A stretch of 64,000 nt of DNA from Curvibacter sp. CHRR-16 (GTDB lineage Bacteria > Pseudomonadota > Gammaproteobacteria > Burkholderiales > Burkholderiaceae_C). The translations under genes and the position numbers were made by a program. This document shows positions 9,921-63,924 of this stretch, piece by piece; position 1 is the first letter of the stretch, and every line of letters begins with the position of its first letter. The stretch lies in NCBI RefSeq assembly GCF_018474005.1, contig NZ_JAHCSH010000002.1:124001-188000 (forward strand). Reading direction: 5' to 3'. The notes beneath the pieces were generated by a model that saw only the letters and a list, made by a program, of their open reading frames with translations, did no database searches and was not told the origin of the DNA.

Positions 9921-9922
9921 GG

Positions 9923-11980: not shown

Positions 11981-11993
11981 AAGTAAAACCACC

Positions 11994-12009: not shown

Positions 12010-12072
12010 TTTTGGTTCTACAGTTGCTCCGTCCCAGCGGACAAACACAGACCAACAAACAGGAGACACGGT

Positions 12073-13002
12073 ATGAAACAGATTGCTCTGGTGGCAGCGC
12101 TTGCGACTGCCATGCTGGCCCCCGTGGCCGCACATGCAGAAAAAGTGGGCTTGGCGATGGCGCAGCAGGACACGTTTCTGACGATTTTGAAAAACGGCAC
12201 GCTCGATGCAGCCAAGAAGCACAACGTGACGGTGCAAGTGGAAGACGCGCAGGGGGATGTGGGCAAGCAGTTGAGCCAGATCCAAAACCTGATCGCGCAG
12301 AAGGTGGACGCCATCATCGTCAACCCAGTGGATACGGACGCAACGCCCAAGATCACCAAGATGGTGACCGACGCCAAGATTCCGCTGGTCTACGTGAACC
12401 GCAAGCCGGTGGACTTTGACAAACTGCCCGCAGGCGTGGCGTTTGTGGCGTCGGACGAAAAGGTGTCGGGCACCATCCAAACCCAAGAGGTGTGCCGTTT
12501 ACTCAAGGGCAAAGGCAACCTGCTGGTGCTGATGGGCGACCTGTCCAACGAGGGGGCACGCACCCGCACCAAAGACATCGAGGAAGTGGTGGCGACCAAA
12601 GAGTGCTCTGGCTTGAAGATTGTGGACAAGCGCGAAGGCAAGTGGGACCGCACGCAAGGGCAAGACATCACCACCAACTGGCTGTCCTCGGGCGTGAAGT
12701 TTGACGCCATCATCGCCAACAACGATGAGATGGCCATTGGCGCTATCAACGCTTTGAAGGCAGCCAAGAAGTGGACAGCCCAATCCATCGTGGCAGGCAT
12801 TGACGCCACCCCCGATGCGCTGGCTTCTATGAAGGCAGGCGACCTGAAGGTGACCGTGTTCCAAAACGCCGCTGGCCAGGGTTCTGGCTCTATCGACGCT
12901 GCGCTCAAGCTGATCAAAAAGCAGCCAGTGGATCGCTTCGTGAACATTCCGTTTGAACTGGTGACCCCAGCCAACCTGAGCAAGTACGCAGGCAAGAACT
13001 GA
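12073..13002 (+). CDS. Sugar ABC transporter periplasmic binding protein, probably for inositol
   Basis: A 309-residue type I periplasmic binding protein (RbsB/IbpA-like) with a clear signal peptide (residues 1-22, cleaved after AAHA). The mature part has two lobes; typical strand-loop motifs are [20 protein letters not shown] and [14 protein letters not shown]. The family delivers monosaccharides to CUT2 ABC importers. Genomic position opposite iolC and similarity of layout to Caulobacter ibpA-iatA-iatP point to myo-inositol. A strong ribosome site (AGGAGA) precedes the ATG. The ATPase gene overlaps the stop by one base (TGATG). Confidence 0.88.
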
Positions 13003-14540
13003 TGAGCACGACGCTGACCAGCAGCGAAGCCCCTGCCCAGCAGGGGCATGAGCAGACCGTTGCTCTGCTGCAAGTGGATGGGGTGCGCAAAACCTTCCCC
13101 GGCGTCGTGGCGCTGGAGAAGGTGCACCTGACACTCAAAGCAGGCACGGTGCATGCACTGATGGGTGAGAACGGCGCGGGCAAGTCCACGCTGATGAAAA
13201 TCATCGCTGGCATTTACACCCCCGACGAGGGCGCGGTGCGCCTGCACGGGCAGGCGCTGAAACTGCGCTCGCCCAAAGATGCGCTGGAGCATGGCATTGC
13301 CATGATCCACCAAGAGCTGAACCTGATGCCCTACATGACGGTGGCGGAGAACGTGTGGATTACCCGCGAACCGCGCAACCGCTTAGGGCTGGTAGACCAC
13401 AGCGCGCTGCGCCGCCAAACGCAAGCGCTGTTTGATGAACTCCATATCCAGATAGACCCGGATGAGGAAGTACAAAACCTGTCTGTGGCTAGCCGCCAGA
13501 TGGTGGAAATTGCCAAGGCGGTGTCGTACAACTCGGACGTGCTGATCATGGATGAGCCGACCTCGGCGCTGACCGAGGCAGAGGTGGAGCATTTGTTCCG
13601 CATCATCCGCGACTTGCGCTCGCGGGGCAAAGGCATCATCTACATCACGCACAAGATGAACGAGCTGTTCGAGATTGCGGACGAGTTTTCGGTGTTCCGC
13701 GATGGGCGCTACATCGCCACCCATGCCTCGCATGACGTGACGCGCGACGACATCATCCGCATGATGGTGGGGCGTGAGATCACGCAGATGTTCCCCAAAG
13801 AAGCAGTGCCTATCGGTGACGTGGTGCTGTCGGTGCGCGACCTGGGACTGGAAGGCGTTTTCGGCGGTGTGAGCTTTGACATCCGCGCCGGCGAAATACT
13901 GGGCCTAGCGGGCTTGGTGGGATCGGGCCGCTCCAACGTGGCCGAGACGCTGTTTGGCATCACCCCTGCCACCAGCGGGACGATTGCGATTCACGGCCAG
14001 ACCGTGCTCATGAGTACCCCCACACAAGCCATGGCGGCAGGCATGGCCTTCCTGACCGAAGACCGCAAGCAAACAGGCTGTTTCTTGTGTCTGGACATTG
14101 AGGACAACATGGACAGCGCGGTGCTGAGCCAGCGCTATGTGCGCGCTGGCTTTTTGCAGCGCAAAGCCTTGCGCCAAGACTGCGAGGCGATGGCGCGCCG
14201 CCTGCGCGTGAAAACGCCGCACATGCAGGAGGTGATCCAGAACCTGTCGGGGGGCAACCAGCAAAAGGTACTGGTAGGCCGTTGGCTGCTGACCAATCCG
14301 CGCATCCTGATTTTGGACGAGCCCACACGCGGCATTGACGTGGGAGCCAAGGCAGAGATTCACCGCTTGGTGACCGAGCTGGCACGCCAAGGCGTGGCGA
14401 TTTTGATGATTTCTTCTGAACTGCCCGAAGTGCTGGGTATGAGTGACCGCGTGATGGTGATGCACGCAGGCCGCATGACGGGCATTCTGAACCGGGCCGA
14501 GGCCACCCAAGTGGCCGTGATGGATTTGGCAGCCAAATAA
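13002..14540 (+). CDS. Sugar ABC transporter ATP-binding protein, CUT2 type
   Basis: A 512-residue protein with two fused ATPase domains, as usual for CUT2 importers. The first (about 22-255) has Walker [10 protein letters not shown] and Walker [11 protein letters not shown], with the signature region [15 protein letters not shown]. The second (about 265-505) has a degenerate Walker A (GLVGSGRSN) and an intact signature LSGGNQQK plus [10 protein letters not shown]. This asymmetry is normal for the RbsA/MglA/IatA group. It energises uptake with the permease encoded next. It overlaps the binding-protein gene by one base. Confidence 0.92.
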
Positions 14541-14551
14541 CTTTAGCCGCT

Positions 14552-15589
14552 ATGCATGCTATGAACTCTACGCTTTCTACCCCTACTGCTTCTTCCACTG
14601 CCGCTATAGCGCAGCGGCGTTTTAAGCTGCCGCCTGAGGCCAGCATCTTCATGGTGTTGGTGGGCATTTGCCTGTTTTTCGAGGCGCTAGGCTGGTACGT
14701 GAACGGCCAGAGCTTTTTGCTCAACTGGGAACGCATCCAAATCATCGTGCTGCAGATGGCGGTGATCGGCATCATCGCGGTGGGTGTGAACATCGTCATC
14801 ATCACCGGCGGTATCGACCTGTCATCGGGCTCGGTGGTGGCCGCTGCGGCGGTGGTATCGGCCAGCCTAGCGCAGGTGTCGGACTTTCCGCGGGCTGTCT
14901 TTCCGCAACTGACCGATTTACCCATCGTCTGGCCCGTGCTGGCAGGCACGGTGGTGGGCGTGGTGGTGGGGCTAATCAACGGTGCGCTGATCGCGTACAC
15001 GGCGATTCCGGCCTTTATCGCCTCGCTGGGCACCATGGTGGCGGCGCGCGGTTTTGCCAAGTGGTTCACTGGAGGCATGCCCGTTTCCATGTTGACGGAC
15101 GACTTTGCCGCCATCGGCTCGGGTGCCACACCGGTCTACATTTTCCTGACCGTGGCCTTGGTCTTTCACATCGTGCTGCGCTACACGCGCTTTGGCAAAT
15201 TCACCTACGCCATTGGGGCCAACCGCCAGGCGGCGGTGGTGTCGGGCATCAACGTGGGCAAGCACCTGATTTGGGTCTATGCCATCGCGGGTTTTTTGAG
15301 CGGAATTGCTGGCACGGTCACGGCGGCCCGCGCCATCTCGGGCCAGTCGGGCATGGGCGTGATGTACGAGCTTGATGCGATTGCCGCCGTGGTGATTGGC
15401 GGCACCTCACTCACGGGGGGCTTGGGGCGCATTACCGGCACCGTCATTGGGGTGCTGATACTGGGCGTGATGATGTCGGGCTTTACCTTCATCCGCATTG
15501 ATGCGTACTACCAAGAGATGGTCAAGGGCGCCATCATCGTGGTAGCCGTGGTAGCTGACCAGATGCGCAACCGCAAGCGCCGCGGCTAA
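14552..15589 (+). CDS. Sugar ABC transporter permease, CUT2 type
   Basis: A 345-residue membrane protein of the RbsC/IatP (BPD_transp_2) family with about eight to ten hydrophobic segments, starting at about residue 30. The family marker NIVIITGGIDLSSGSVVAA is near residues 88-107, and GGTSLTGGLGRITGTVIG near 282. It would form the membrane channel for inositol with the two preceding products. Start is the ATG at 14552 or at 14561 (MNSTLSTP). The gene ends 6 bases before the convergent cheB stop, with no room for a separate terminator. Confidence 0.9.
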   Translation: MHAMNSTLSTPTASSTAAIAQRRFKLPPEASIFMVLVGICLFFEALGWYVNGQSFLLNWERIQIIVLQMAVIGIIAVGVNIVIITGGIDLSSGSVVAAAAVVSASLAQVSDFPRAVFPQLTDLPIVWPVLAGTVVGVVVGLINGALIAYTAIPAFIASLGTMVAARGFAKWFTGGMPVSMLTDDFAAIGSGATPVYIFLTVALVFHIVLRYTRFGKFTYAIGANRQAAVVSGINVGKHLIWVYAIAGFLSGIAGTVTAARAISGQSGMGVMYELDAIAAVVIGGTSLTGGLGRITGTVIGVLILGVMMSGFTFIRIDAYYQEMVKGAIIVVAVVADQMRNRKRRG

Positions 15590-37365: not shown

Positions 37366-38847
37366 TTAACGCAGCAAGGACAGCACGCTCTGTGGCATTT
37401 GGTTGGCCTGAGCCACCATCGCTGTGCCAGCCTGCGACAGCACTTGCGAGCGCGACAGGTTGGCAGTTTCTTGCGCAAAGTCGGCATCTTGAATACGCGA
37501 GCGGGAGGCGCTCATGTTTTCCGAACTGACTTGCAAGTTGGAGATGGTGTTCTCAAAGCGGGACTGGATCGCACCGAACTTCGCACGTTGGCCGTTGATC
37601 ACTTGCAAAGCAGCGTCCACGGTCTTGAGCGCATCGGTAGCACCGTCAACTGTACTGATATCCAGTTCAGCAACCGACTTCAGCGTAGAAGTGGTGGACT
37701 TCAGTGCTGTGGTGTCGGTATCGGCCACCACGGCAAACGACTTGTCCGAGTTGAGTTCCAAATGGCCCGATGTGACGCTGTCGCTAGTCGTGACACCATT
37801 GGATGTACCCAAAACCACCGCAGAACCCACTGCAGTACCAGTGCTGTCCATTTTGGTCACACTGACATTGCCAGCGCTAGGGGTATCAGTCAGGCTGACG
37901 GCCAAGTCATTACCAGTAGCATTGTTCAAATCAATGCCACTGCCATCCTTGTTCACCATGGCGGTGACACCTGTCTTACCAGCTTGGTCATTGATAGCCT
38001 GCACTGCTGCAGCCAAACCATCTTTGGTGTTGACTGATGTCAGCGTGAAGTTCACGCTCACGGCGGTGCCGTTGTCGGAACGCAAAGCCAAGTTGTACGA
38101 GCCAGTGGTATCGAACTTCAACTGGGCATCAGTACGGGCTGTAGCCTTCACACCAGTAGAGCCTGCCTTGTCATTGATCGCCTCGGCCACAGCTTTGGCT
38201 GTGGCGTTGGCTTCCACATCCACACTGGCTGTACCTACGCTGCCCGCAATATTGATCTTGCCAGCGCTCATACCGTTATTGCCCCATGCTGCTGCAGCGC
38301 TAGCCACACCAGCATTGGCACCACCCACTTGGTTATTGCCGTACTTATTGGTACTGAAGTTGGCTGTTTGGGTAGTAATCGTCTGGTTGGCATTGGCACC
38401 CACTTGGAAAGTGGCGGAGCCCATGCTGCCATCGAGTAAGGTCTGACCGTTGAACTGGGTAGTTTTGGCAACACGATCCAATTCAGAAGTCAGCTGACCG
38501 ACTTCAGCGTTCAGCGCAGCACGGTCACTGGCACTGTTGGTCGCGTTAGCGGCCTGCACAGACAGTTCGCGGATACGCTGGAGCATGTTGCCCATAGAGC
38601 CCAATGCGCCTTCAGCGGTTTGCGACATGGAGATACCGTCGTTAGCGTTGCGGCTAGCTTGGTTCAAACCGCGAATCTGCGACGTGAAACGCTCGCTGAT
38701 AGCAAGGCCTGCAGCATCGTCCTTGGCACTGTTAATGCGCAAGCCCGAAGACAGACGTTGCATCGATGTGCCCAGGGAGCTTTGGCTGGCTGTCAAATTC
38801 CGCTGAGCCGTCAACGAGTTGACATTGGTGTTGATGATGGCTGACAT
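37366..38847 (-). CDS. fliC: Flagellin 1
   Basis: A 493-residue flagellin. The D0/D1 N-terminus ([40 protein letters not shown]) and C-terminus ([20 protein letters not shown], ending LSLLR) are canonical, and the middle (about 170-400) is variable, Thr/Ser/Val-rich. The true start is the ATG at 38847, with AGGAG upstream; the longer frame to 38922 lies in the leader. A sigma-28-like promoter at 38987-39013 and a terminator at 37294-37325 make it a monocistronic late gene. It is divergent from a second flagellin with near-identical ends. Confidence 0.96.
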
Positions 38848-39280
38848 TTCGATCACTCCTGTAAAACTCAAAATTTCCGGCGAAATTGCCGATCCCAACG
38901 CCAGTGTTACCACTGGCACCATGACCGGCGCGCCACAACCTTGACGCCCTCCGGACGACGGATCCTCTGAGCATCCGTTGGACTAGTTTTCGGGTGTCTT
39001 GAAGAAAACTTTAGGCTTTTTTTGCAAGGTCGCTAACACGGCTTGAAAAGCACCAAATCAGCAAATGCGGGGTATTTACCCGCCATTTCTGCAAACCTAG
39101 GGTTTACCCCTATTAAGAAATTTCCCTCACCAGCAATTTGGCGGGTTTTTCCACGCTTTATCCCCGTTATAGAAAAGTTGGCGATCTCCAGAATTCGGTC
39201 ATCGAAATCCAAAGCCTGCAATGTATGCAGGCGTTGCCATCAGCCATTTCGCTGATGTTTGTCTAACTAGGAGTTACGCA
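38848..39280. promoter_or_regulatory. Divergent control region between the two flagellin genes
   Basis: This 433-base gene-free stretch carries the fliC1 promoter (38987-39013). Toward flagellin 2 it has two nested inverted repeats: GGGTATTTACCC within a larger stem around 39061-39092, and AAACC-TAG-GGTTT at 39093-39105, which overlaps a GGGTTTACCC. I found no convincing sigma-28 box for flagellin 2. A candidate TAAGAAAT-N11-GCAATTTG (39114-39140) is weak. No open frame of note. Confidence 0.5.
38987..39013 (-). promoter_or_regulatory. Sigma-28-like promoter of flagellin 1
   Basis: On the minus strand TAAAGTTT, 11 bases, then CCCGAAAA, against the consensus TAAAGTTT-N11-GCCGATAA. The -35 matches at all eight positions; the -10 keeps the CCGA core. 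It predicts an untranslated leader of about 130 bases before the ATG at 38847. Confidence 0.8.
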
Positions 39281-40798
39281 ATGGCCTCAACGATTAACAC
39301 CAATGTGCAGTCGCTGAATGCGCAGAGAAATCTGGCAGCTTCGCAAAGCTCGCTGGGTACGTCCATGCAGCGCTTGTCGTCGGGCTTGCGTATCAACAGC
39401 GCCAAGGACGATGCAGCAGGTTTGGCGATCGCTGAACGCATGACCTCGCAAGTACGCGGGCTGAACCAAGCGAGCCGCAACGCCAACGATGGCATATCTC
39501 TAGCGCAAGTGGCCGAAGGCGCCTTGGGTAGTGCATCATCTACCTTGCAACGCATTCGCGAACTGGCAGTTCAATCGGCCAACGCCACTAACAGCGCCAG
39601 CGACCGCGCAGCGTTGAACGCCGAAGTAAACCAGCTCAACGCCGAATTACAACGCATCGCACAAACCGCGCAGTTCAACGGGCAGAACATTTTGGATGGC
39701 AGCTTCACCTCTGCTACCTTCCAAGTGGGTGCCAATGCCAACCAAACCATCATCGCCACTACGGGTGACTTCCGTACCAGCAAGTACGGTAACTTCCGCA
39801 TCGGTTCGGATGTCGCTGCCACTGCTGGCGGCCCCGGTGATTTGGTTATGGGCTCGGTAGCTGGCTTGCGCAAAACACAAAGCACTGCCGTCGCAGACAT
39901 AAACGGCGCAAGTCCAATGGTTGCAGACCCCACCTTCCGCATTGATGGTGGTGCAGGTAGTGCGGTCATCGGCATCACAGAAGGTCAATCGGCTCGGTCA
40001 TTGGCAGCTGCTATCAATAGCAAAGCGGGTACAACAGGCGTTACAGCGTCAGCGCATACACAAACTGACCTGACCAACTTCCAAGCGCACTCAAGCTATA
40101 CCTTGCAGTTACGCTCCAATAACGGCACACCTACATCCATCTCCTTCAGCGTGGGCAACCTCACACCCGATGGTCTGTCTGCAGCCGTTTCCGCATTCAA
40201 TGACAAGAGCTCATCTACCGGAGTTTCTGCACGCATCAACTCCGATGGCAACGGGGTTACCTTGGTCAACGAGTCGGGTGAAGACATTGTGCTGGCCAAT
40301 ACCGATGGAGGCAGCACGCTGAACGTTGGTGAAACAACCATTCCCAATGGTGGCAATCTCGCTGCCTACGTAACAGGTAGCTTGACCTTGGATTCGGATC
40401 GATCATTCGGTATCGCCGCTGCCGATCCGGGCGGTTCAGGAGCCAGCTTTTTCTTAGCTGCATCTGCAGCCAGCCAACTGCAACCAGTCGACACGCTGGA
40501 TGTGACCACGGTGGAGTCATCGACCCGTACATTGAGCACGGTTGATGCAGCGATCTCCGTGATCGCAGCCCAACGCGCCAAATTCGGTGCTCTGCAATCA
40601 CGGTTTGAAAGCACCATCACCAGCTTGCAAACCATGTCGGAAAACGTCAGTGCATCGCGCTCACGCATTCAAGATGCCGACTTTGCCCAAGAAACAGCCA
40701 ACTTGTCACGTACCCAAATCTTGCAACAAGCAGGGACAGCTATGGTGGCGCAGGCGAACCAGTTGCCACAAGGGGTGCTGGCACTGCTCAAGCAATAA
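39281..40798 (+). CDS. Flagellin 2
   Basis: A 505-residue flagellin with the same D0/D1 ends as flagellin 1 ([41 protein letters not shown]-terminal [20 protein letters not shown]). The central region differs and includes a flagellin 'IN' type segment ([20 protein letters not shown]). The ATG at 39281 follows TAGGAG; the upstream part of the frame (from 39221) is leader. Two divergently transcribed paralogues suggest a mixed or switched filament. A weak hairpin follows the stop. Confidence 0.95.
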
Positions 40799-48258: not shown

Positions 48259-49703
48259 CCATCCAACGCTTCATCGCCCCCACCTCTCGAGAAGCCTTGG
48301 CCAAAGCCCGCATGGCTTTTGGAGAGGGCACCCTGATTTTGTCCAACCGCCAAACCGAACATGGCGTCGAAGTAGTTGCCACGGCAGAAGACACGCTCGA
48401 CGGATTGGATGCCAGCCTGCGCCAAAGCCATGCGCCTGCCAGCAGCAACGGTGGCAAAACACGCCCTGCGCCCGGCAGCTACCAAGAAACTGCTCAGCAA
48501 GTGGAAGCCGATGTGGAAAAACTCTCCATGAGTACCCTGTCTTTCCAAGACTACGTACGCGAGCGCATGGCACGCCGCAAGCAAGAGCAAGAGGTCGCTA
48601 GCGTCGCCAGCGACACACCCTCGCTGCCAAACACCGTTGCACCACGCGCCCCACAGCGCCAAGCCCCGGCCAACGCACGCAACACCGCCAGCCACGAAGT
48701 GCACACCCCGCAGCGTGCAGCGCGGGCACCCGCGCCTATCCAGGTTGCACCCAATATGCCCGATGGCGTGATGCAAGAGCTGCAATCCATGCGCGAACTG
48801 ATTGAAGACCGCTTCAACACCCTGACTTGGTTGGGCCAAGCGCGCAAGAACCCCATCCACTCCAACCTGATGCTCAAGCTCATCCGCGCTGGCTACTCCC
48901 CCTCACTGGCACGCGCAGTCTTGGAGCGTCTGCCAGAAGAGATGGATGCCCCCGAATCGCTACGCTGGGTCATGGACGTTTTGGAGCGCAACATCCGCAC
49001 CGATGCCACAGCCCAAAACCTGCACGAAGAAGGCGGCGTATTTGCCCTCGTGGGCTCTACCGGCGTAGGAAAAACCACCACCGCTGCCAAACTGGCTGGC
49101 TTGTGTGCCCAGACCTATGGCCCCAGCAGCGTGGGCCTCATCACCCTGGATACCTACCGCGTAGGAGCCCATGAGCAACTGCGCACCTACGGCAAGATGC
49201 TCGGTGTGGTAGCCCACATGGCCCACGACAAAGCCGCCCTACAAGACCTGCTGGGCTTGCTGTCCAACAAGAAAATGGTGCTCATCGACACCACTGGCAT
49301 TGCGCCACGCGACCCACGCAAACAAGAGCTGCTGGACTTGATCGACCTGCCCCGCATCAAACGTATCTTGGTACTCAATGCAGGCAGCCATGGCGACACG
49401 CTGGACGAAGCCGTGCAGTGCTTCAAAACCGGTGCGATCCAGCACGCGGTACTGTCCAAAATTGACGAGGCCGTCAAACTCGGCCCCGCTATCGATGCGG
49501 TGATTCGCCACCAACTGTTGCTGCGCGGTGTAACCACAGGCCAGCGCGTGCCCGAAGACTGGGAAAGCGCCTCGGCTGCCAAGTTGGTGCAACTGTCCAT
49601 GCGTTCCAGTGGCAACTCGGCCCACGACCCCAAAGACATGGATTTGGGCTTTTTCTTCAGCCACGCCAACAACCAAAACCTGCAAGGGGTGCTGCATGCT
49701 TGA
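48255..49703 (+). CDS. flhF: Flagellar SRP-type GTPase FlhF
   Basis: A 482-residue protein: an N-terminal basic region, a low-complexity linker, and an NG domain (about 185-455) with P-loop VGSTGVGKTTTAAKLAG, LITLDTYRVGAHEQL and DTTGIAPRD (the G3 loop has Thr where many have Ala). It places and times flagellar assembly at the pole with FlhG. The next gene, an FlhG homologue, starts inside its last codons (8-base overlap). Confidence 0.94.
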   Translation: MTIQRFIAPTSREALAKARMAFGEGTLILSNRQTEHGVEVVATAEDTLDGLDASLRQSHAPASSNGGKTRPAPGSYQETAQQVEADVEKLSMSTLSFQDYVRERMARRKQEQEVASVASDTPSLPNTVAPRAPQRQAPANARNTASHEVHTPQRAARAPAPIQVAPNMPDGVMQELQSMRELIEDRFNTLTWLGQARKNPIHSNLMLKLIRAGYSPSLARAVLERLPEEMDAPESLRWVMDVLERNIRTDATAQNLHEEGGVFALVGSTGVGKTTTAAKLAGLCAQTYGPSSVGLITLDTYRVGAHEQLRTYGKMLGVVAHMAHDKAALQDLLGLLSNKKMVLIDTTGIAPRDPRKQELLDLIDLPRIKRILVLNAGSHGDTLDEAVQCFKTGAIQHAVLSKIDEAVKLGPAIDAVIRHQLLLRGVTTGQRVPEDWESASAAKLVQLSMRSSGNSAHDPKDMDLGFFFSHANNQNLQGVLHA

Positions 49704-50508
49704 AGCCCCTCTCCACCAAGCTGCTGGGTTGATCCGACTGGGCGTGCACCACTCGCCCAAGCTGCTGGCCATGGTGAGCCACGGTGACGAGAATGCCGAA
49801 CTACCACTGCTGCTGCGCCTGTGCACCAACATGGTTGAGCTGGGTTACCCCGTGGTAGTGCTCGATGGCACCGCCATGGAAAGCAACGACAACCCCGGCC
49901 TAGAACAAGCCCTGCAAGGCTTAGAAAGCGGTTGGTCCAGCTTAGAAACCCCGGGCTGGAACATCATCCCCGCGGGCTTGGGCCTGCTCAGCTTGGCCGC
50001 CCGCAACCGCGGTGTGCTGGGTTGGAACGGTGTGCATGCCCTGTTTGGCCACCACGCAGTGGTCGTCGTCTACGCCACCGCCACGGTGCTTACCCCGCTC
50101 TTTACGGGCAGTGAAGTACGCCCCGTAATCGCGCTGTCGCGCGCCAAAACCTCGCTCCTGACAAGCTACGTGGCCCTCAAACGCGTCTTGACCAAAGGCC
50201 ATTTGCAACCCTTGGTGGTACATGTGCGCCAAGCCACGCCTGATAACAGCCCCAGCCCCGTAACTGGTTTGCAGGAATACACCCGCCAATTTTTGCAGTA
50301 CGAGTTTTCGGCTATTGAGCTGGACATTGACAGCGCTGAAGACAACAGCGCCGACACCGATGTGCAACGCCTCGCCCTGGGCTTGCTGGAAACAGCCCAC
50401 ACCATGGCCAGTGGCAGCCATGAAGCAAGCCATTGGCTGCCCCCCCTGGTGCCCACTAACATGGCCAGCCCAGCCGTACCTGTTTCTTCGTCCGTCGGGA
50501 GACACTGA
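49696..50508 (+). CDS. flhG: FlhG-like protein with degenerate P-loop
   Basis: A 270-residue protein in the place of FlhG (FleN), the ParA/MinD-type ATPase that controls flagellar number. The N-terminal FlhF-activating motif is kept in altered form (HQAAGLIRL, residues 7-15; family DQAxxLR). The P-loop position, where the family has KGGVGKT, reads VSHGDENAEL (27-36) and lacks the glycines, lysine and threonine needed for nucleotide. The later ParA-like beta strand and helix remain (YPVVVLDG; ALSRAKTSLLTSYVALKRVL). So the fold is probably kept without ATP hydrolysis. The frame opens at 49609, but the ATG at 49696 begins the homology. It overlaps flhF by 8 bases and fliA by one. Confidence 0.8.
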   Translation: MLEAPLHQAAGLIRLGVHHSPKLLAMVSHGDENAELPLLLRLCTNMVELGYPVVVLDGTAMESNDNPGLEQALQGLESGWSSLETPGWNIIPAGLGLLSLAARNRGVLGWNGVHALFGHHAVVVVYATATVLTPLFTGSEVRPVIALSRAKTSLLTSYVALKRVLTKGHLQPLVVHVRQATPDNSPSPVTGLQEYTRQFLQYEFSAIELDIDSAEDNSADTDVQRLALGLLETAHTMASGSHEASHWLPPLVPTNMASPAVPVSSSVGRH

Positions 50509-51221
50509 TGTACACCGCCAAAGGACAACTGGATCGCAGTTCGCTCATCAAACAGTACCAGCCGCTGGTACGGCGTCTGGCCCATCACATGATGGCCAAA
50601 CTCCCCCCCAGTGTGGATGTGGAAGACCTGATACAGGTTGGCCTCATTGGGTTGTCCGATGCGCTCTCGCGCTACGAAGCCTCGCAAGGCGTGCAGTTTG
50701 AAACCTTTGCCACCCAGCGCATTCGCGGTGCCATGCTCGATGAACTGCGCGAAAACGACTGGATGTCGCGCGGTTCACGCAAGAGCCAAAAGGAAATCGA
50801 ATCGGCCGTTCGCAAGCTGGAGCACAAATTTGGCCGCAGCCCCAGTGAGTCGGAAATTGCCACCGAACTGGGCATGAAACTGGCCGACTACCAAGCCTTG
50901 CTGAGCAAAGTGCGCGGCACGCAGTTGGTCTACTTGGAAGACATGGCCAGCCACGACGACGATGACGGTTACCTAGACCGCCACTCCGTGGACAAAGATG
51001 CCGACCCCATGAATCTGCTGCGCAACCAGCGTCTGCGCGAATCGTTGGTCGAAGCCATCAAAGCCTTGCCCGAGCGCGAGCAGTACATCATGAGCATGTA
51101 CTACGAGCACGACATGAACCTGAAAGAAATTGCCGCTGTACTGGAAGTGACCGAATCGCGCATCTGCCAACTACACAGCCAAGCGATTGCCCGCTTGCGC
51201 GCCAAGATGCGCTCCCATTGA
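50508..51221 (+). CDS. fliA: Flagellar sigma factor FliA (sigma-28)
   Basis: A 237-residue sigma factor of the FliA group. Region 2 has YQPLVRRLAHHMMAKLPPSV and VEDLIQVGLIGLSDALSRYE; region 3 follows, and region 4 has REQYIMSMYYEHDMNLKEIA with its helix-turn-helix. It directs late genes from TAAAGTTT-N11-GCCGATAA promoters, four of which are visible in this window, and FlgM holds it in check. It starts on the flhG stop (TGATG). Confidence 0.97.
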   Translation: MYTAKGQLDRSSLIKQYQPLVRRLAHHMMAKLPPSVDVEDLIQVGLIGLSDALSRYEASQGVQFETFATQRIRGAMLDELRENDWMSRGSRKSQKEIESAVRKLEHKFGRSPSESEIATELGMKLADYQALLSKVRGTQLVYLEDMASHDDDDGYLDRHSVDKDADPMNLLRNQRLRESLVEAIKALPEREQYIMSMYYEHDMNLKEIAAVLEVTESRICQLHSQAIARLRAKMRSH

Positions 51222-52502: not shown

Positions 52503-52835
52503 TCAGTTCAGTGGCTGGTTGCCACGATCCATCATTTCTTGGGCGTTGGAGAGCATCTTGTCGGCAATCGCATCGGGATTGGCTTTGAAGCTTCCATCTT
52601 TGATGGATTGCTTCATCTGTGCGACTTTTTTCTGGTCAATTTCAGCACCATCCCCTGTTTTTTCCATCGACTTGGCATTGGAGGACATGGTCACCGCCAC
52701 GCCCGGAGACGCGGCAGTTTGCTTAGCCTGGGTGGCCGCAGCAGATGCAGCGGTGCCCTGAGCCGTTTTTTGCCCTGCACTGGCGGTGCTACTGGGCACC
52801 GCACTGCTGATATCTGTTGGTTGACCTATTTTCAT
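52503..52835 (-). CDS. flgM: Anti-sigma-28 factor FlgM
   Basis: A 110-residue FlgM: a disordered N-terminal half (MKIGQPTDISSAVPSSTASA, typical start) and a C-terminal half with the FliA-binding helices (DQKKVAQMKQSIKDGSFKAN, PDAIADKMLSNAQEMM). It holds FliA until the hook is complete and it is exported. A sigma-28-like promoter (52878-52904) lies upstream, so FliA drives its own inhibitor. Confidence 0.93.
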   Translation of the reverse strand: MKIGQPTDISSAVPSSTASAGQKTAQGTAASAAATQAKQTAASPGVAVTMSSNAKSMEKTGDGAEIDQKKVAQMKQSIKDGSFKANPDAIADKMLSNAQEMMDRGNQPLN

Positions 52836-52877: not shown

Positions 52878-52904
52878 ATATCGGCCCCATTGGGGTGAAC
52901 TTGA
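52878..52904 (-). promoter_or_regulatory. Sigma-28-like promoter of flgMN
   Basis: On the minus strand TCAAGTTC, 11 bases, then GCCGATAT, nearly identical to the consensus TAAAGTTT-N11-GCCGATAA. It ends 42 bases before the flgM ATG, within the short gap after the flgA stop. Confidence 0.8.
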
Positions 52905-52923: not shown

Positions 52924-53688
52924 TCACAAATCGATACGTACCGTGCGGCTATCCACTACCTGGGCCGATACCACCCGCCCATTGTCGAACTTGATTTTGG
53001 CCATCTGTCCCACCACACCGGAAGACACGGCCAAAGCCTCGCCCGAGACTTGGAAGCCATCGCCTTGGGCAATCACCCGCAGCGGTGTACCGGCTTGGAA
53101 CACTTCGCTGGCCTTGACCATGCCTTGACGCAAAGCCTGGCCTGCATTGAGCATACGGGTAGCCACTTGGCCGCGCCACGCATTGCGATCTTGCAACACT
53201 GCAGTGGGCTCTTCAGCCCAATCCACCTCAGCTTGCACTACATCGTCGTCAGACACAGTGCTACCACCTCGAATGCCATTGCGCACCACCCATGCTGGGC
53301 CAAAGGCTTTGACTTGGGTCGCAGCGGTCACATTCCAGCGAGCCACGCCATCGGTGCAACGCAAGCCCACGCGGCTACGTCCCCACAGACGGGTTCCCAC
53401 AGGCAAGTAGGCCTCTACCTGGGCGCAGGCGGGCAATTGCAAACGGGTATCCAACGGTGCCACCAACACTTCCATGCGCAAGCGCGGATCGGCACTTTCC
53501 GAAGTTTTGACCGCATCGTTGGCCCAACGTTGGGCTATTTGGCGCAAGGTATCCAAGTTAGCCAATGCTGGTTGCTGCGCAAACGCACTGCTGGCCAAAC
53601 AAAAGGCAAGCACTGCGAAAAGCACCACGATGCAATGCTGCAGCACAGTGCGAACAAGAGAAATACTTCTCCAATAACGCTGGTTCAT
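52924..53688 (-). CDS. flgA: P-ring assembly chaperone FlgA
   Basis: A 254-residue secreted protein. The signal peptide is about 1-37 (VLQHCIVVLFAVLAFCLASS, cleaved after AFA). The mature part carries a SAF domain (about 130-195; NGIRGGSTVSDDDVVQAEVD) and a C-terminal SAF-like segment (AGTPLRVIAQGDGFQVSGEA). FlgA is needed for polymerisation of FlgI. The ATG at 53688 follows AAAAAGGAGG. The upstream frame (to 53802) overlaps the divergent flgB control region and is not used. Confidence 0.93.
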   Translation of the reverse strand: MNQRYWRSISLVRTVLQHCIVVLFAVLAFCLASSAFAQQPALANLDTLRQIAQRWANDAVKTSESADPRLRMEVLVAPLDTRLQLPACAQVEAYLPVGTRLWGRSRVGLRCTDGVARWNVTAATQVKAFGPAWVVRNGIRGGSTVSDDDVVQAEVDWAEEPTAVLQDRNAWRGQVATRMLNAGQALRQGMVKASEVFQAGTPLRVIAQGDGFQVSGEALAVSSGVVGQMAKIKFDNGRVVSAQVVDSRTVRIDL

Positions 53689-56684: not shown

Positions 56685-57425
56685 ATGGATCGCATCATCT
56701 ACACCGCCATGACAGGGGCATCGGCCGCCGCCAACCGGCAAGCCACCCTGTCCAACAACCTAGCCAACGCGTCCACCAACGGCTTTCGCGCCGAGTTGGA
56801 CACCTACCGGGCCGTACCGTTGCGCGGCGATGGTGCCACCACCCGCGTGTTTGCCTTGGAAGCCACTGCCACCTACTCCAACTTGGCAGGCCCGGCCATG
56901 CGCACGGATCGCAACTTGGATGCCATGAACATCGGCAACACATGGTTTGCCGTCAGTGGCTTGGATGGCAACGAGGGCTACACCCGCAACGGCCACTTTG
57001 AAGTGGGCAACGATGGCAGCTTGCAAACCGGCAACGGCCTGCAAGTGCTCTCCAGCGGTGGTGGGCCACTCATCATCCCGCAGGGAGCCGAAGTCACCAT
57101 CCAAGCCGATGGCAACGTCAGCGCCCGCGTAGGCAACCAGCCTGCCGAGGTGGTGGGCAAACTCAAAATCGTCTCCCCCCAAGGGGAAGACACCTTGCGC
57201 CGCAACCCCGATGGGCTGTTTCGCACCCCCACCAGCGACCCGCTACCCGACGACCCCAACGCCCGCGTACAAGTGGGCGTACTGGAAGGCTCCAACGTCA
57301 GCACGGTGGAGACCATGGTGGGCATGATCCAAACCGCGCGCCAATTTGAAGTACAGATGCGCATGCTGCAAACCGCTGAATCCAACGACCGCTCCGCCGG
57401 TCAACTACTGAGCTTGCAAGGATAA
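56685..57425 (+). CDS. flgF: Proximal rod protein FlgF
   Basis: A 246-residue rod protein ([20 protein letters not shown] start; [20 protein letters not shown]) with C-terminal [20 protein letters not shown]. FlgF forms part of the rod. It lies 22 bases after flgE. Confidence 0.95.
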
Positions 57426-57430
57426 GAGCC

Positions 57431-58213
57431 ATGATCAATTCCCTGTGGATATCCAAAACCGGCATGGAAGCCCAGCAAACCCAGCTGGACGTGATCGCCA
57501 ACAACTTGGCCAACTCCGCCACCAACGGCTACAAGCGTTCGCACGCCGTGTTCGAGGATCTGATGTACCAGAACCTGCGCCAAGTCGGCTCCAACACATC
57601 CGAGCAAAGCAGCATGCCCACAGGCTTGCAGTTGGGCTTGGGTGTGCGCACCGTGGCCACCAGCCGCACATTTAGCCAAGGGTCCCTACAGCAGTCCAAC
57701 AGCAATTTGGACGTGGCTATCCAAGGCAACGGCTTCTTCCAAGTCACCCTGCCCGATGGCACCACCGGCTACACCCGCGATGGGGCCTTTCAGATGGACA
57801 ACCAAGGCGTGTTGGTCACCTCCAGCGGCTACCCCGTACAGGGCGGCGTGACCGTCCCAGCCAACGCCACCAATCTTGCTATTTCGCAAGACGGTGTCGT
57901 CACGGCCCAAATCCCGGGTCAGGTCAACCCCCAGCAAATTGGCAACATCACGCTGGCCAGCTTCATCAACCCCGCTGGCCTAGAGCCACGTGGCCAAAAC
58001 GTGTACACCGAAACCGCTGCATCAGGCCAGCCCAACGCAGGCAACCCCGGCACCAACGGTTTGGGCACCGTGTTGCAAGGCTTCTTGGAAGCCTCCAACG
58101 TGAACGTGGTGCAAGAGCTGGTGACCATGATCCAAACCCAGCGTGCCTACGAAATGAACTCCAAGGCCATCCAGACGTCTGACCAAATGCTGCAAAAGCT
58201 CGGACAGCTTTAA
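57431..58213 (+). CDS. flgG: Distal rod protein FlgG
   Basis: A 260-residue distal rod protein ([41 protein letters not shown]-terminal [20 protein letters not shown]). Normally followed by flgH and flgI. Here a terminator and a sigma-28-like promoter separate it from flgI, and flgH is missing. Confidence 0.96.
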
Positions 58214-58243
58214 GCCATAGCGCCAGCCCCATAACCCACCAAT

Positions 58244-58275
58244 AAGCCCGATAAGCACAGCCTTTTCGGGCTTTT
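58244..58275 (+). terminator. Putative terminator after flgG
   Basis: AAGCCCGA (58244-58251) and TCGGGCTT (58266-58273) form a perfect 8-bp stem with a 14-base loop, ending in a run of four T residues, 30 bases after the flgG stop. It would end the flgB-G message. Confidence 0.6.
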
Positions 58276-58283
58276 GAATGGAC

Positions 58284-58310
58284 TAAAGAATTCCAGAATA
58301 GTGCCGACGG
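58284..58310 (+). promoter_or_regulatory. Sigma-28-like promoter upstream of flgI
   Basis: TAAAGAAT, 11 bases, then GCCGACGG, against TAAAGTTT-N11-GCCGATAA. Exact spacing, -35 good, -10 keeps GCCGA. The start point would be near 58317. It would make flgI-J-K-L a FliA-dependent unit, unlike the class II placement of flgI in enterics. Confidence 0.7.
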
Positions 58311-58352
58311 TAGCCCACCCTTCTTGGTGGGAACCACAGACCCATCGGCCCT

Positions 58353-59534
58353 ATGACACATTGCAACCCTCCTCTTTCCGAGCGCCCCACCGGGTGGTGG
58401 GCGCGCATGTCCCGGTGGATGCGCACCGGATTGCGCTGCATGACAGGCATGGCGGTAGCTGCAGCGCTGCTCAGTACGCCAGCCCATGCTGGTCGCATCA
58501 AAGAATTGGCCTCCATCGAAGGCGTGCGCAGCAACCAGTTGTCCGGCTTTGGCTTGGTCGTAGGCTTGGACGGCACGGGTGACTCCACCACCCAAATGCC
58601 CTACGCCACCCAAGGCCTGAAGAACTACATGGATCAACTGGGCCTGCCGCTGTCGGCAGCCGGTGCTGCGCAGCTGCAAATGAAAAACGTGGCAGCCGTG
58701 CTGGTCACAGCCCAGTTGCCAGCCTTTGCACGCCCTGGCCAGCTCATCGACATCAACGTGTCTTCGCTGGGCAACGCCAAATCGCTCAAAGGCGGCACCC
58801 TCATTGCAACCCCTCTGCGCGGCGCCGATGGCGAGATTTACGCCTTGGCCCAAGGCAACCTCATCGTGGCGGGTGCTGGCGCATCGGCGGGTGGCAGCAA
58901 GGTGCAGGTCAACCACTTGAGCGCAGGGCGTATTCCTGAAGGTGCACAGGTGGAACGCAGCGTTCCCACTCCACTGCAAGATGGGACAACCATCAGCCTA
59001 AGTCTGGATGCCACAGACTTCCAAACCGCCCGCAAGGTGGCCACCGCCATCAACCGCCGCTTTGGCAATGGCGTAGCCTTGGCCATGGATGGCCGCACCA
59101 TCCAAGTCAAAGCGCCCACCACCCCCAACGAGCGGGTGAACTTCATTGCTGAACTGGAAGAGTTGCCGGTAGAAGAGACCATTGCGGCGGCCAAGGTCAT
59201 CATCAATGCACGCACGGGCTCCATCGTCATGAACCAAGCCGTTACGCTGGGCCCTTGCGCGGTAGCCCACGGCAACTTGTCCATCAGCATTTCGTCTACT
59301 CCCGTGGTGAGCCAGCCCAACGCCTTCTCGGGCGGGCAAACGGTGGTGGGAGAGAAAACGTCCATAGACATCAAACAAGACACCGGCAAGATCGTGCAAC
59401 TGCCCGCTTCTGCCAAGCTGACTGATGTGGTCAAGGCGCTGAACTCCTTGGGTGCTACGCCACAAGATTTGCTGGCCATCCTGCAGGCTATCAAGTCTGC
59501 GGGTGCGCTCAATGCGGAGTTGGAGGTCATCTAA
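58353..59534 (+). CDS. flgI: Flagellar P-ring protein FlgI
   Basis: A 393-residue FlgI with a signal peptide ending near residue 46 (MAVAAALLSTPAHA). The mature part starts GRIKELASIEGVRSNQLSGF and carries NINVSSLGNAKSLKGGTL-like DIN motif and the C-terminal VKALNSLGATPQDLLAILQA. FlgI is the P ring in the peptidoglycan layer. The ATG at 58353 gives a long N-region; the ATG at 58407 (MSRWMRTGLR) has GGTGGTGGG upstream and a more usual signal length. It follows a sigma-28-like promoter and ends on the flgJ start (TAATG). The L-ring gene flgH is not present here. Confidence 0.93.
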   Translation: MTHCNPPLSERPTGWWARMSRWMRTGLRCMTGMAVAAALLSTPAHAGRIKELASIEGVRSNQLSGFGLVVGLDGTGDSTTQMPYATQGLKNYMDQLGLPLSAAGAAQLQMKNVAAVLVTAQLPAFARPGQLIDINVSSLGNAKSLKGGTLIATPLRGADGEIYALAQGNLIVAGAGASAGGSKVQVNHLSAGRIPEGAQVERSVPTPLQDGTTISLSLDATDFQTARKVATAINRRFGNGVALAMDGRTIQVKAPTTPNERVNFIAELEELPVEETIAAAKVIINARTGSIVMNQAVTLGPCAVAHGNLSISISSTPVVSQPNAFSGGQTVVGEKTSIDIKQDTGKIVQLPASAKLTDVVKALNSLGATPQDLLAILQAIKSAGALNAELEVI

Positions 59535-60532
59535 TGTCTGTTGGCATGACCCCTGGTTTTAGCGGCAGTCTGAACAACCGCGACATGCTGGCCACCGACG
59601 TACAGTCGCTGGACAAGCTCAAGTACGCGGCTGGTGCCAAGACGCCTGAAGCCATCCGGGAAACGGCCAAGCAGTTTGAATCGCTGTTCATGCGCGAACT
59701 GCTCAAGAGCATGCGCGATGCCAATGCCTCCATGAAGTCCGGCATGCTGGACAACGAAGGCACCAACTTGGGAAACGATTTGCTGGATCAGCAGTTTGCC
59801 GTCCAAATGTCAGGCCAACGCGGTGGCTTGGCCGACATCATTGCCAAACAACTGGCCCAGCAAGCCGGTGTTTCGCTGGATGGATCGTCCACGGGCGTAG
59901 GCAAAGCAGCACCTGCAGCATCGATGGGCCCCGCAGCGACAGGCAGTGTCGGTGCGGTCACTAGCACCACCAGCATCTACAGCCGCCAAACAACCACCAC
60001 CACTGCCGCCTTGAGTGCCAGTGCTTTGGCGGCTTACAACACCCGCACCACGCCAACCCAAGCCCAGCGCGACTTTGTGACCAAACACCAAAACACCGCC
60101 GCCCGCATTGAACGCGAAAGCGGCATACCCGCCAGCTTCATGCTGGGTCAAGCGGGGCACGAAACGGGCTGGGGCAAACGCGAGATTCGCACCCGCACAG
60201 GTGAAAACTCGCACAACCTGTTTGGCATCAAAGCCGGCCCGAACTGGAAAGGCCGTGTAGCCGAGGTGCACACCACCGAATACATCAACGGTGTACCCCA
60301 CCGCCAAGTGGCCCGCTTTCGGGCTTACAACTCGTTTGAAGAAGGGTTTCGCGATTACGCCCGCCTGATCAACGAAAGCCCCCGCTACGCCAAGGTGCGC
60401 AACCAAATGCATTCGGCCCAAGGCTTTGCCAACGGTCTGCAAAAAGCCGGTTACGCCACCGACCCAGCTTATGGCGCCAAGCTGAGCCGCGCCATCCACA
60501 CCACGCTGAATATTCAGCGCGTGCAGGTCTGA
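59534..60532 (+). CDS. flgJ: Rod-cap and peptidoglycan hydrolase FlgJ
   Basis: A 332-residue dual-domain FlgJ. The N-terminal rod-capping domain (about 25-110) has KQFESLFMRELLKSMRDANA. A low-complexity linker follows. The C-terminal glucosaminidase domain (about 190-325) has ESGIPASFMLGQAGHETGWG (catalytic Glu in GHETGWG) and NLFGIKAGPNWKG. It opens the cell wall for the rod. It overlaps the flgI stop by one base. Confidence 0.95.
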   Translation: MSVGMTPGFSGSLNNRDMLATDVQSLDKLKYAAGAKTPEAIRETAKQFESLFMRELLKSMRDANASMKSGMLDNEGTNLGNDLLDQQFAVQMSGQRGGLADIIAKQLAQQAGVSLDGSSTGVGKAAPAASMGPAATGSVGAVTSTTSIYSRQTTTTTAALSASALAAYNTRTTPTQAQRDFVTKHQNTAARIERESGIPASFMLGQAGHETGWGKREIRTRTGENSHNLFGIKAGPNWKGRVAEVHTTEYINGVPHRQVARFRAYNSFEEGFRDYARLINESPRYAKVRNQMHSAQGFANGLQKAGYATDPAYGAKLSRAIHTTLNIQRVQV

Positions 60533-60553: not shown

Positions 60554-62647
60554 ATGGGACTTCTCAACGTCGGCACCCGCTCCCTGCAAGCCAACCAAGT
60601 GGCCCTGCAAACCACAGGGCACAACATTTCTAACGTCAACACGGTGGGCTACTCACGCCAAAACGCCGTGTTCAACCAAGTGGAAGGGCAGTTCACGGGC
60701 AACGGCTATATCGGCAAGGGCGCGGAAATCCGCACCATCCAGCGCAACTACAGCCAGTTCCTGACACGCCAGTCCAGCTTGGCCAGCTCCATCGAGTCGC
60801 AAGACGTGATGCGCGCTGACAAATTGCGCCAACTGGAAGAGCTCTTTCCCGGCGGCAACAGCGGCTTGGGCGCTTCGGTGAACGACATGCTCAACGCATT
60901 CAGCGATGTGGCCAATGCTCCTACCGACCTGACAGCCCGTACCGTGGCCCTGACGCGTGTGGATGAAACCGCTGCCCGCTTTCGGGCGGCCTCCCAATCG
61001 CTGGACGATCTGCAGCGCGGTGTACGCCAAGAATTGGGACAAAAGGTCGATGCCATCAACACCTTGGCCAAAGACATTGCCCAAGTGAACGAAGAAATTG
61101 CCCGCACCACCGGCTCTGGCCAACCGCCCAACGATTTGCTGGACCGCCGCGATCAGCTCATTAAGGAACTGAACCAGTACGTGCAAACCACGTCCATCTC
61201 TGCCGATGATGGCACCATCAGCCTGTTCGTTGCCCACAGCCAGCCGCTGATTTTGGGCACCCACGTCACCCCCATGACCTTGGTACCCGACGAGTACAAC
61301 GATCCACTCAAGAACAAGGTGGCCATGCAGATAGATGGTGCCACCATCATGCTCGATGACAACGCCTTGGGCGGTGGTGAGGTGGCAGGCTTGCTGCGCT
61401 TTCAGAACCGCGATATGACCGAAGCGCGTAACCTGCTGGGCCGCCTGACTTTGGCCGTGACCACGGCCATGAACGACCAGCATAAGCTGGGCTTGGACAT
61501 GGATGGCAATGCAGGCAAAGAGTTGTTCAGCCCCATCACGTTCAATGGGGAAAACATCCGCAGCCCCCAAGCACCTGCGAAATTGAACCGTGGCACTGGC
61601 GAGCTCAAAATGCAAGTCACCGATGTGACCAAGTTCGCCGCCTCTGACTATGAAATCCGCTTCACAGGCCCTTTGACCGGCACGGTCACACGCCTGAGCG
61701 ACAACAAAGTGGTCGCCTTCCCACAATCGCCCGCCCCGGCCTCTGGGGCTTTGGTCAATGTGGATGGATTGGACATCCAGCTCACTGGACTGCCAGCCGA
61801 TGGGGATCGCTTTTTGCTCAAACCCTTTAGCAGCTCCGCCAGCACCATCCAAGCCCAGTTCTCCACCCCACGGGGTTTGGCCGTAGCCAGTCCAATAGCT
61901 GGTGCCATGGGTACCAACAACCAAGGCAACCTCAAGGTAGTCAATGTGCGGGCGAACAGCCCCACGGCTACAGCCAATCTCCCTGTGACGTTCACATTCA
62001 CAGGAACCAACACCTACACCCGTAGCGATGACCCTACGGGCAAAGAGTACACCTATACCCCTGGTCAAGCCATTGGCTCTTTGGGCTCTATCACCATTCC
62101 TGCCCCCAGCTCTCCCCCACCAGGAGTGCCTGCTCTGCCCGAGAATTTGCCGGAACCTCCACCGGGAGCGCCTGCGCTTTCTGACCTAGCGCCGCCACCA
62201 CCACCGGATTTGACTATTCCTACGGGGCAGCCTGACAACCAGTGGAGCTTTGTGCTGCAAGGCGCGCCCAAAGCGGGCGACACCTTCACGGTTATCGACA
62301 TCAAAGACCCCAAATACGGCGCCGACTACCAGCTCAACGCCGGCAACGCCCAAGCCATGATGGATTTGCGCGATGTGAAGATGTTTGACAACGGCGTCAT
62401 GTCCGATGGCTACGCCAGCATGATTTCGCAAATTGGTATCCGCAGCCAAAGCGCCAAAAACGCCGCCGATGTGTCGGCCACCGTCGCAGCCAATGTGGAG
62501 CGTGACCGCACCCGTGTATCGGGCGTCAACCTCGACGAAGAAGCCGCCAAGATGCTGCAATACCAGCAGGCCTACCAGGCATCAGCCAAGATGATTCAGA
62601 TCGCTCAGAACATCTTTGACACCCTGATGCAGAACATGAACCGATAA
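60554..62647 (+). CDS. flgK: Hook-filament junction protein FlgK
   Basis: A 697-residue FlgK, longer than the enteric form (about 550). N-terminal LLNVGTRSLQANQVALQTTG and NISNVNTVGYSRQNAVF are typical; the C-terminus (NLDEEAAKMLQYQQAYQASA) is conserved. The central part is enlarged. Near residues 516-553 lies a proline-rich insert with repeated Pro-Pro-Gly and Pro5 runs. FlgK joins the hook and filament with FlgL, whose gene follows. Confidence 0.95.
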   Translation: MGLLNVGTRSLQANQVALQTTGHNISNVNTVGYSRQNAVFNQVEGQFTGNGYIGKGAEIRTIQRNYSQFLTRQSSLASSIESQDVMRADKLRQLEELFPGGNSGLGASVNDMLNAFSDVANAPTDLTARTVALTRVDETAARFRAASQSLDDLQRGVRQELGQKVDAINTLAKDIAQVNEEIARTTGSGQPPNDLLDRRDQLIKELNQYVQTTSISADDGTISLFVAHSQPLILGTHVTPMTLVPDEYNDPLKNKVAMQIDGATIMLDDNALGGGEVAGLLRFQNRDMTEARNLLGRLTLAVTTAMNDQHKLGLDMDGNAGKELFSPITFNGENIRSPQAPAKLNRGTGELKMQVTDVTKFAASDYEIRFTGPLTGTVTRLSDNKVVAFPQSPAPASGALVNVDGLDIQLTGLPADGDRFLLKPFSSSASTIQAQFSTPRGLAVASPIAGAMGTNNQGNLKVVNVRANSPTATANLPVTFTFTGTNTYTRSDDPTGKEYTYTPGQAIGSLGSITIPAPSSPPPGVPALPENLPEPPPGAPALSDLAPPPPPDLTIPTGQPDNQWSFVLQGAPKAGDTFTVIDIKDPKYGADYQLNAGNAQAMMDLRDVKMFDNGVMSDGYASMISQIGIRSQSAKNAADVSATVAANVERDRTRVSGVNLDEEAAKMLQYQQAYQASAKMIQIAQNIFDTLMQNMNR
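62098..62223 (+). other. Proline-rich insert within FlgK
   Basis: Codes for about 40 residues very rich in proline (SSPPPGVPALPENLPEPPPG and LAPPPPPDLTIPTGQ). It lies in the variable surface domain, between two folded parts. FlgK proteins of enterics have no such insert; it may be a linker. Confidence 0.6.
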
Positions 62648-62667: not shown

Positions 62668-63924
62668 ATGGCCGTCACCCCCCTCACCCGCTTAGGCTCC
62701 AACAACGCATACGACAACTCGGTGCGCACTTTGGGCGCGCGCCAAAACAAGCTGGTCAACCTGCAAGAGAACCTGACCACTGGCAAAAAAGTGGTCCGCC
62801 CCAGCGACGACCCCACGGGTGCCGCCCAAGCCGAGCGGGCACAGGTGCGTATCTCGCGCATTGCCACCGACCAACGGGCACTGGAAAACCAAAAGAACTC
62901 CATCGCCATGGCTGAAAGCACGCTGGGCGACATCACCTCGGCGCTGCAGCGTTTTCGCGAACTGACCGTGGCCGCTGGCAGCGGCAGCGCCAGCCCCGCA
63001 GAGCGCCGCACACTGGCCATCGAAATGCAGCAACTGCGCGAGCAAGTGCTCTCGTATGCCAACCGCAAAGACACCAATGGTTTGCCACTGTTTGGTGCTT
63101 TGGGCAGTGCAGAAAACCCCTTCTCCGGCCCCAACCAACCACCGCAGGACTACCTGTTCTTGGGATTGCCCGGCCAACCCTCGTCCACCGAGCGCAGTAT
63201 TCCCAATACGGTCGATGGCGACAACGCCCTCATGCTCCAGCCCAAGCGCGATGGGGCCTACAACGTCAAGCTCTCTGACATTCCACCCGAACGCGCTCTG
63301 CGCACAGAACCGGTGAAGGTGGTGGATCCCAGCTTGGTCAACGGTTCGGGCTATACGGTCAAGATCGACAAACTCACTACCTTGGACGACGGCAGCACCG
63401 AGGTCGAATACACCCTGACCGAAGGCCCTCCAGTCAACGGCTTTACCAAAGCCGGCCTCAAGGCCAGCTACCCACCGGGCATCCCCCCTAGCATCACCAT
63501 CAGCGAGATGCCGGGCTTAAGCCTGACCCTCAGGGGCAAGATGGAAGCGGGCGACACCGTGGCCATTGATCCCAGCCCCAGCGTGTTCAGCGTCATGGAC
63601 GACGCTGTCAACGACATTGGTGATGCCGTTAATGACAACGCTGCTGCACAAGCCGTGGCCTTGGCGCTGTACAACTTGGACAAGAGCATCGAACGCGTCT
63701 CGGCCGTGCGTGGCCAAACCGGGGCTTTGCTCAACCGTGCCGACCGCATCAGCTCCAACCAAGAAGCCCGCAATGTGCAGCTTGAGGCGGATCGCTCGCG
63801 TGCCGAGGACTTGGACATGATCAAAGGTGTGGCCGAGTTCCAGAACCAGCAAACGGGCTATCAAGCCGCCTTGCAGTCCTACGCACAAACACAGAAACTC
63901 TCACTGTTTAACTACCTGAGTTGA
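62668..63924 (+). CDS. flgL: Hook-filament junction protein FlgL
   Basis: A 418-residue FlgL: N-terminal RLGSNNAYDNSVRTLGARQN, with LQENLTTGKKVVRPSDDPTG, the flagellin-like family core; C-terminal SNQEARNVQLEADRSRAEDL ending in LFNYLS. It is longer than the enteric protein (317) because of a larger central domain (about 140-320). It follows flgK after 20 bases and is probably the last flagellar structural gene in this cluster. Confidence 0.94.
   Translation: MAVTPLTRLGSNNAYDNSVRTLGARQNKLVNLQENLTTGKKVVRPSDDPTGAAQAERAQVRISRIATDQRALENQKNSIAMAESTLGDITSALQRFRELTVAAGSGSASPAERRTLAIEMQQLREQVLSYANRKDTNGLPLFGALGSAENPFSGPNQPPQDYLFLGLPGQPSSTERSIPNTVDGDNALMLQPKRDGAYNVKLSDIPPERALRTEPVKVVDPSLVNGSGYTVKIDKLTTLDDGSTEVEYTLTEGPPVNGFTKAGLKASYPPGIPPSITISEMPGLSLTLRGKMEAGDTVAIDPSPSVFSVMDDAVNDIGDAVNDNAAAQAVALALYNLDKSIERVSAVRGQTGALLNRADRISSNQEARNVQLEADRSRAEDLDMIKGVAEFQNQQTGYQAALQSYAQTQKLSLFNYLS

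Follow-up and report, generated by a model that had tools for sequence, protein, structure and literature searches.

Absence of the L-ring gene flgH from an otherwise intact flagellar gene cluster in Curvibacter sp. CHRR-16

In cells with two membranes the L ring is regarded as necessary for the flagellum to reach the outside, and in the Salmonella scheme sigma-28 becomes active only once the hook-basal body is complete. Promoters read by sigma-28 (FliA) follow a consensus with a TAAAG-type -35 and a GCCGA-type -10 element at the proper spacing. Spirochaetes, whose filaments are periplasmic, have flagella that do not exit through an L ring; the locus of Curvibacter sp. CHRR-16 described here would resemble them in having no L-ring exit and differs from them in that their filaments are kept in the periplasm by design. 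In the sections of the literature drawn on here, Salmonella without FlgH arrests its basal body just past the P ring as a 'candlestick' (PMC8298488), and in strains without the P- and L-ring genes FlgM is not secreted and the sigma-28 genes are off (PMC13344023). The Curvibacter locus is like the former in having a P-ring gene, no L-ring gene and an encoded remaining flagellum; those strains, however, are laboratory mutants, whereas the present case is natural, or at least not engineered, and its flgI is preceded by a new hairpin and a promoter of its own. Salmonella mutants that combine loss of flhE with loss of flgH or flgHI are the other close comparison (PMC11247099, in the part considered here): flhE flgH double mutants make external filaments, and movement is seen in a few flhE flgHI cells, but induction of flagella sharply lowers viability and periplasmic filaments form as well. 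The likeness is that FlgH is absent, and FlhE undetected, here too; the difference is that the combination is harmful in Salmonella, with filaments partly periplasmic. Finally, a survey of Pseudomonadota lists flgH among the 12 of 53 genes that are rarer in host-associated bacteria (PMC13063649), in agreement with the view that flgH can be lost; the part of that survey used here is without gene neighbourhoods, whereas the present cluster is intact but for one gene. We found no description of a natural loss of flgH alone in the open-licence papers searched.

The window, that is, the whole stretch of 64 kb that was analysed, corresponds to bases 124001-188000 of a 702-kb contig in a genome of 3.45 Mb (26 contigs, 99.99% complete). 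Three features frame the place that flgH occupies in relatives:

57431-58213, forward strand: flgG, distal rod (Pfam FlgE/F/G domains; 60-84% identity to aligned relatives)
58214-58352, forward strand: the flgG-flgI gap, place of flgH in relatives (from aligned gene distances)
58353-59534, forward strand: flgI, P ring (Pfam FlgI, profile positions 1-343 of 343)

With flgG ending at 58213 and the flgI start codon ATG at 58353, the gap measures 139 bases and holds no FlgH coding. When loci are aligned, the distance from the end of flgG to the start of flgI is 142 bases here and at least 740 bases in each of 112 further loci where both genes aligned (some loci are overlapping fetches, and 19 of the 132 loci are without one of the two genes). 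The genome contigs were searched with the Pfam FlgH model and with our own 18-row FlgH profile made from relatives, and neither gave a match in the whole genome (the profile was read at E values up to 10 and run without a control genome); FlgH was likewise not found within the window, where the top tblastn hit had an E value of 1.4. The same Pfam model matches 80 of 100 genomes of the genus and 336 of 397 genomes of the family, each of the latter at least 98% complete. Hence, the sequence-only reading was right that flgH is missing between flgG and flgI, and its suggestion that the gene might have moved elsewhere is not supported by the genome-wide Pfam search that it had itself proposed, nor by the profile.

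Two ways in which the absence might be only apparent can be weighed at this point. The L ring might be made of a protein that has diverged beyond the reach of the FlgH models, and such a protein could indeed escape a sequence search; nevertheless, the 18-row profile stayed empty even though its first row shares 56-91% identity with FlgH of relatives, and we regard this explanation as extremely improbable. Alternatively, flgH might be missing from the assembly only, or the junction might be an assembly error, and the draft state of the genome leaves some room for this. However, the assembly is nearly complete, and neither a gap between contigs nor a collapsed repeat is likely, because the junction lies deep inside the 702-kb contig and 70 of the bases in the gap (below) are unrepeated in the genome, with matches of only 14-25 bases and no second copy. 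We therefore consider an assembly artefact very improbable.

The absence is also rare. Among the 100 genus genomes, FlgI was found in 83, FlgH in 80, both in 78, and FlgH only in two. FlgI without FlgH occurred in five: Curvibacter sp. CHRR-16 and four genomes with flgI at a contig end, on contigs of 3.9-4.9 kb in which the upstream side of flgI is cut off. That is, FlgH is present in 78 of the 79 genus genomes whose assembly covers the region upstream of flgI, Curvibacter sp. CHRR-16 being the exception. A loss shared across the clade was rejected as well, given that a single DNA match spanning flgG and flgI appeared only in Curvibacter sp. CHRR-16 when 103 genus genomes were searched. At the family level, FlgI was found in 338 and FlgH in 336 of the 397 genomes, and by eye the difference consists of Curvibacter sp. 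CHRR-16 and one further genome (G321). This second genome was considered as a parallel loss of flgH and set aside as probably a remnant: flgIJKL are alone of the flagellar genes in the 40 kb examined, and its FlgG search, a weak one run without a control, gave no match. The absence of the single gene flgH from an otherwise intact flagellar cluster is thus confirmed as real and as rare in the family. As a separate observation, flgIJKL without flgG or flgH in the examined flank was seen in several records (L081, L082, L090, L100, L117, G321 and L175), which are titled Giesbergeria, Extensimonas and Acidovorax, and for this reason the flgH/flgI boundary is a natural break point.

The first half of the gap carries sequence that sets it apart from its relatives:

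58214-58283, forward strand: 70 bases without counterpart in relatives (blastn-short)
58244-58275, forward strand: hairpin with TTTT, terminator-like (fold energy; absent from a stricter terminator scan)

Outside the own genome, the 70 bases gave a single 14-base match (E 0.31) against the compared loci of relatives, and no source for them was found in the genome or in these relatives; the region 57000-60000 holds no Rfam family at gathering scores. The hairpin stem (58244-58273) has a fold energy of -16.2 kcal/mol (z -4.4), with none of 200 shuffles equally good, and the arrangement AGCCCG, 3-25 bases, CGGGCTTT occurs in the window only at this hairpin (mean 0.00 in shuffles). The stem is followed by TTTT, ending at 58275, and then by GAAT, and the hairpin is not listed by a terminator scan that requires five T in eight bases. 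The hairpin terminator that had been proposed here accordingly stands as a stable hairpin, but with just four Ts it is best called terminator-like.

The second half of the gap is of another kind:

58284-58310, forward strand: sigma-28-like promoter of flgIJKL, TAAAGAAT, 11 bases, GCCGACGG (sole perfect match in the window; kept in relatives)
58284-58286, forward strand: TAA, former flgH stop codon, within the promoter -35 (from flgH ends of relatives)

This element shows the -35, the -10 and the spacing of the sigma-28 consensus. Perfect TAAAG-N14-GCCGA occurs in the window at 58284-58310 only, and at most one mismatch is found at 7 sites vs. 2.4 expected. Of 2000 shuffled stretches of 320 bases, 171 scored at least 11 out of 16, so the score alone could be due to chance; the support for a sigma-28-like promoter comes instead from the element being conserved at the equivalent position in relatives. 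In 15 of 16 relatives the flgH stop codon forms the first three bases of a TAAAG -35 with a properly spaced GCCGA, and among 191 loci 91 carry the same 24-base core (a count that includes own loci and overlapping fetches; genus genomes with a more distant FlgI, scoring near 1e-123, left out). Among 101 distinct flgH ends, 54 have the exact stop-TAAAG...GCCGA arrangement, four have it with one -10 base changed and 43 are without it; two of the 43 come from records titled Rhodoferax, and the others carry other titles. The flgI start codon fits relatives as well, ATGACAC following soon after the promoter in several of the 16. One-mismatch sites also lie at 38990-39013 (reverse strand), upstream of a flagellin gene, and at 52881-52904 (reverse strand), upstream of flgM.

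Homology to relatives restarts one base before the TAA of flgH, and the sigma-28-like promoter was, by comparison with them, left whole while the flgH coding sequence was lost. The sequence-only reading therefore identified the promoter ahead of flgI correctly, but was mistaken in placing it there instead of flgH: relatives that have the gene carry this element too, across the flgH stop codon. Its statement that no remnant of FlgH is left holds for the coding part; one trace of the gene seems to survive in the stop codon TAA, whose three bases also begin the -35. Because flgH-bearing relatives have the same element, a predicted second start for flgIJKL is, on this comparison, an old trait of these bacteria that is independent of the loss of flgH. 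Rhodoferax-type loci share the flgG-flgH-flgI order and the promoter over the flgH stop position with the present one, and differ from it in that flgH is present within 17 bases of flgG, leaving no room for a hairpin (flgH starts at -4 to +17 bases from the flgG end in 16 loci, with starts chosen mechanically). Thus, the comparison of gap content among relatives, which had also been suggested, leaves the 70 bases and the hairpin unmatched and the promoter element common, which is to say that, as far as these loci tell, the former are new and the latter is old. A puzzle is that a P-ring gene should have a sigma-28-like promoter, even though the P ring belongs to the structure that switches sigma-28 on.

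What the loss means for the cell depends on the state of the other flagellar genes, of which the following are referred to below:

50508-51221, forward strand: fliA, sigma-28 (Pfam sigma-70 regions 2-4; name by gene context)
52503-52835, reverse strand: flgM, anti-sigma-28 (Pfam FlgM)
52924-53598, reverse strand: flgA, P-ring chaperone (Pfam ChapFlgA)
59534-60532, forward strand: flgJ, rod cap with glucosaminidase domain (Pfam)
60554-62647, forward strand: flgK (Pfam FlgK_D1)
62668-63924, forward strand: flgL (Pfam flagellin N and C domains; name by position after flgK)

All 30 scanned proteins of the window match Pfam families fitting their names, namely FliE, FliF, FliG, FliM, FliN, FliP, FliQ, FliR, FlhA, FlhB and FliI; FlgB to FlgG, FlgI, FlgJ, FlgK, FlgL, FliD and two flagellins; and FlhD, FlhC, MotB, FliA, FlgM and FlgA (the families matched by FlgB, FlgC, FlgF, FlgG, FlgL, FliI, FliA and MotB cover more than the named protein). 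NCBIfam models matched seven of ten further proteins (FliJ, FliH, FliL, FliS, FlhF, MotA and CheZ, with FliH, FliL and CheZ scoring under the curated threshold), and the frames of FliK, FlhG and FlgN, without an NCBIfam match, are named by place, the one in the flhG position lying at 49696-50508 between flhF and fliA. Between fliP and fliN there is a frame of the size expected for fliO. The match of FliR begins at profile position 30, and its open frame extends back, its 263 residues being the full frame. The window hence has the genes for the secretion gate, the MS and C rings, the rod, hook, filament and stator; the P ring and its chaperone FlgA are present and the L ring is absent. No broken gene was found among the scanned flagellar genes; the 42 frames are open by the calling procedure, and the full-length family matches are the real sign of intactness. 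Two divergent flagellin genes with full flagellin domains lie at 37366-38922 (reverse strand) and 39281-40798 (forward strand), and what looks like a cluster for ABC uptake and for the breakdown of inositol or sugars (3881-15589, frames read only) adjoins the chemotaxis genes.

FlgI matches solved P-ring chains, including 7bgl and 7clr (E 3e-118), and leaves unchanged all 131 positions that do not vary across 96 other rows when one divergent fragment is excluded (all 102 when it is included). The Salmonella P-ring residues near the rod, Lys-63 and Lys-95 (PMC8298488, in the part drawn on here), would on our reading fall in the motifs QMK and GNAK, which are kept here. Changes at otherwise invariant sites number two each in FlgG and FlgF and one each in FlgJ, FlgC, FlgE and FlgK, which places FlgG third of 75 rows and FlgF tied for first of 73, that is, on the high side without being outliers. 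Rates of evolution were estimated in two ways. A three-genome test gave 1.93 for the rod and 1.86 for the P ring and chaperone vs. 1.88 for housekeeping proteins, with 2.34 for flgJ, 2.59 for the stator, 2.61 for two chemotaxis proteins and 1.39 for hook and cap (25 of 41 flagellar and chemotaxis genes used, the 16 missing in at least one genome being dropped). On a ten-genome tree, the flagellar sets stood at 1.37-2.37 times the median outgroup distance of the others, vs. 1.16 for three housekeeping proteins. Since the two designs gave differing answers, these rates are left out of the argument.

Had function been lost long ago, decay would be expected, and little is seen; hence, either the loss of flgH is young or the flagellum is still useful. 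A young loss might be a deletion that arose in the sequenced culture only, with wild members of the species having flgH. The little decay of the other flagellar genes and the presence of FlgH in all 78 other genus genomes whose assembly reaches upstream of flgI would fit such an event. The junction, however, is not clean, with its 70 unrelated bases and stable hairpin, and we hold a culture-only deletion to be improbable.

If instead the flagellum is still useful, it would have to work without an L ring, with hook and filament crossing the outer membrane by force or with the help of an unrecognised lipoprotein. The remaining flagellar cluster is intact where examined, and the external filaments and occasional movement of the Salmonella flhE mutants described above lend this idea some substance. 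FlhE (PF06366) has no match in any of the 103 genus genomes (the model matched just 1 of 14 control genomes, and a divergent FlhE could escape it), and flhF directly follows flhA in Curvibacter sp. CHRR-16. On the other side stand the lowered viability and periplasmic filaments of the same mutants, and the fact that the sole other family genome of the 397 with FlgI and without FlgH seems to be a remnant. A replacement lipoprotein was sought with a rough lipobox search across the window; its three hits all lie inside or antisense to flagellar frames and were rejected as spurious. We consider a working ring-less flagellum a minority possibility, and an unlikely one. A more specific version, an external working flagellum in a natural Gram-negative bacterium, with a P ring and no L ring in which flgI is purely sigma-28-driven and split off by the new terminator, appears doubtful to us.

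The likeliest explanation, which the sequence-only reading had not put forward and which is in our view reasonably probable, is that flgH was lost naturally, in the lineage or the strain, that assembly halts after the P ring, and that the cells are non-motile or poorly motile. As the comparison with relatives shows, the segment from just past the flgG stop codon to just before that of flgH was removed, and 70 unrelated bases with the terminator-like hairpin took its place. Without FlgH, no L ring would form and assembly would halt at rod and P ring; FlgM would then hardly be exported and sigma-28 genes, including the flagellins, would stay low, with non-motile or poorly motile cells as the expected outcome. 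Should the hairpin terminate transcription, flgI would depend on sigma-28, closing a loop that would lock the block further. The stable new hairpin and the intact promoter, on the other hand, look maintained rather than scarred; this and the scarcity of decay in the other flagellar genes count against arrest.

The order of steps by which motility is lost is a matter that one recent survey, in the part considered here, could not ascertain (PMC12199754). The loss of flgH alone in Curvibacter sp. CHRR-16 would be either a first step in the loss of motility or a test case for the crossing of the outer membrane by a flagellum without the ring.
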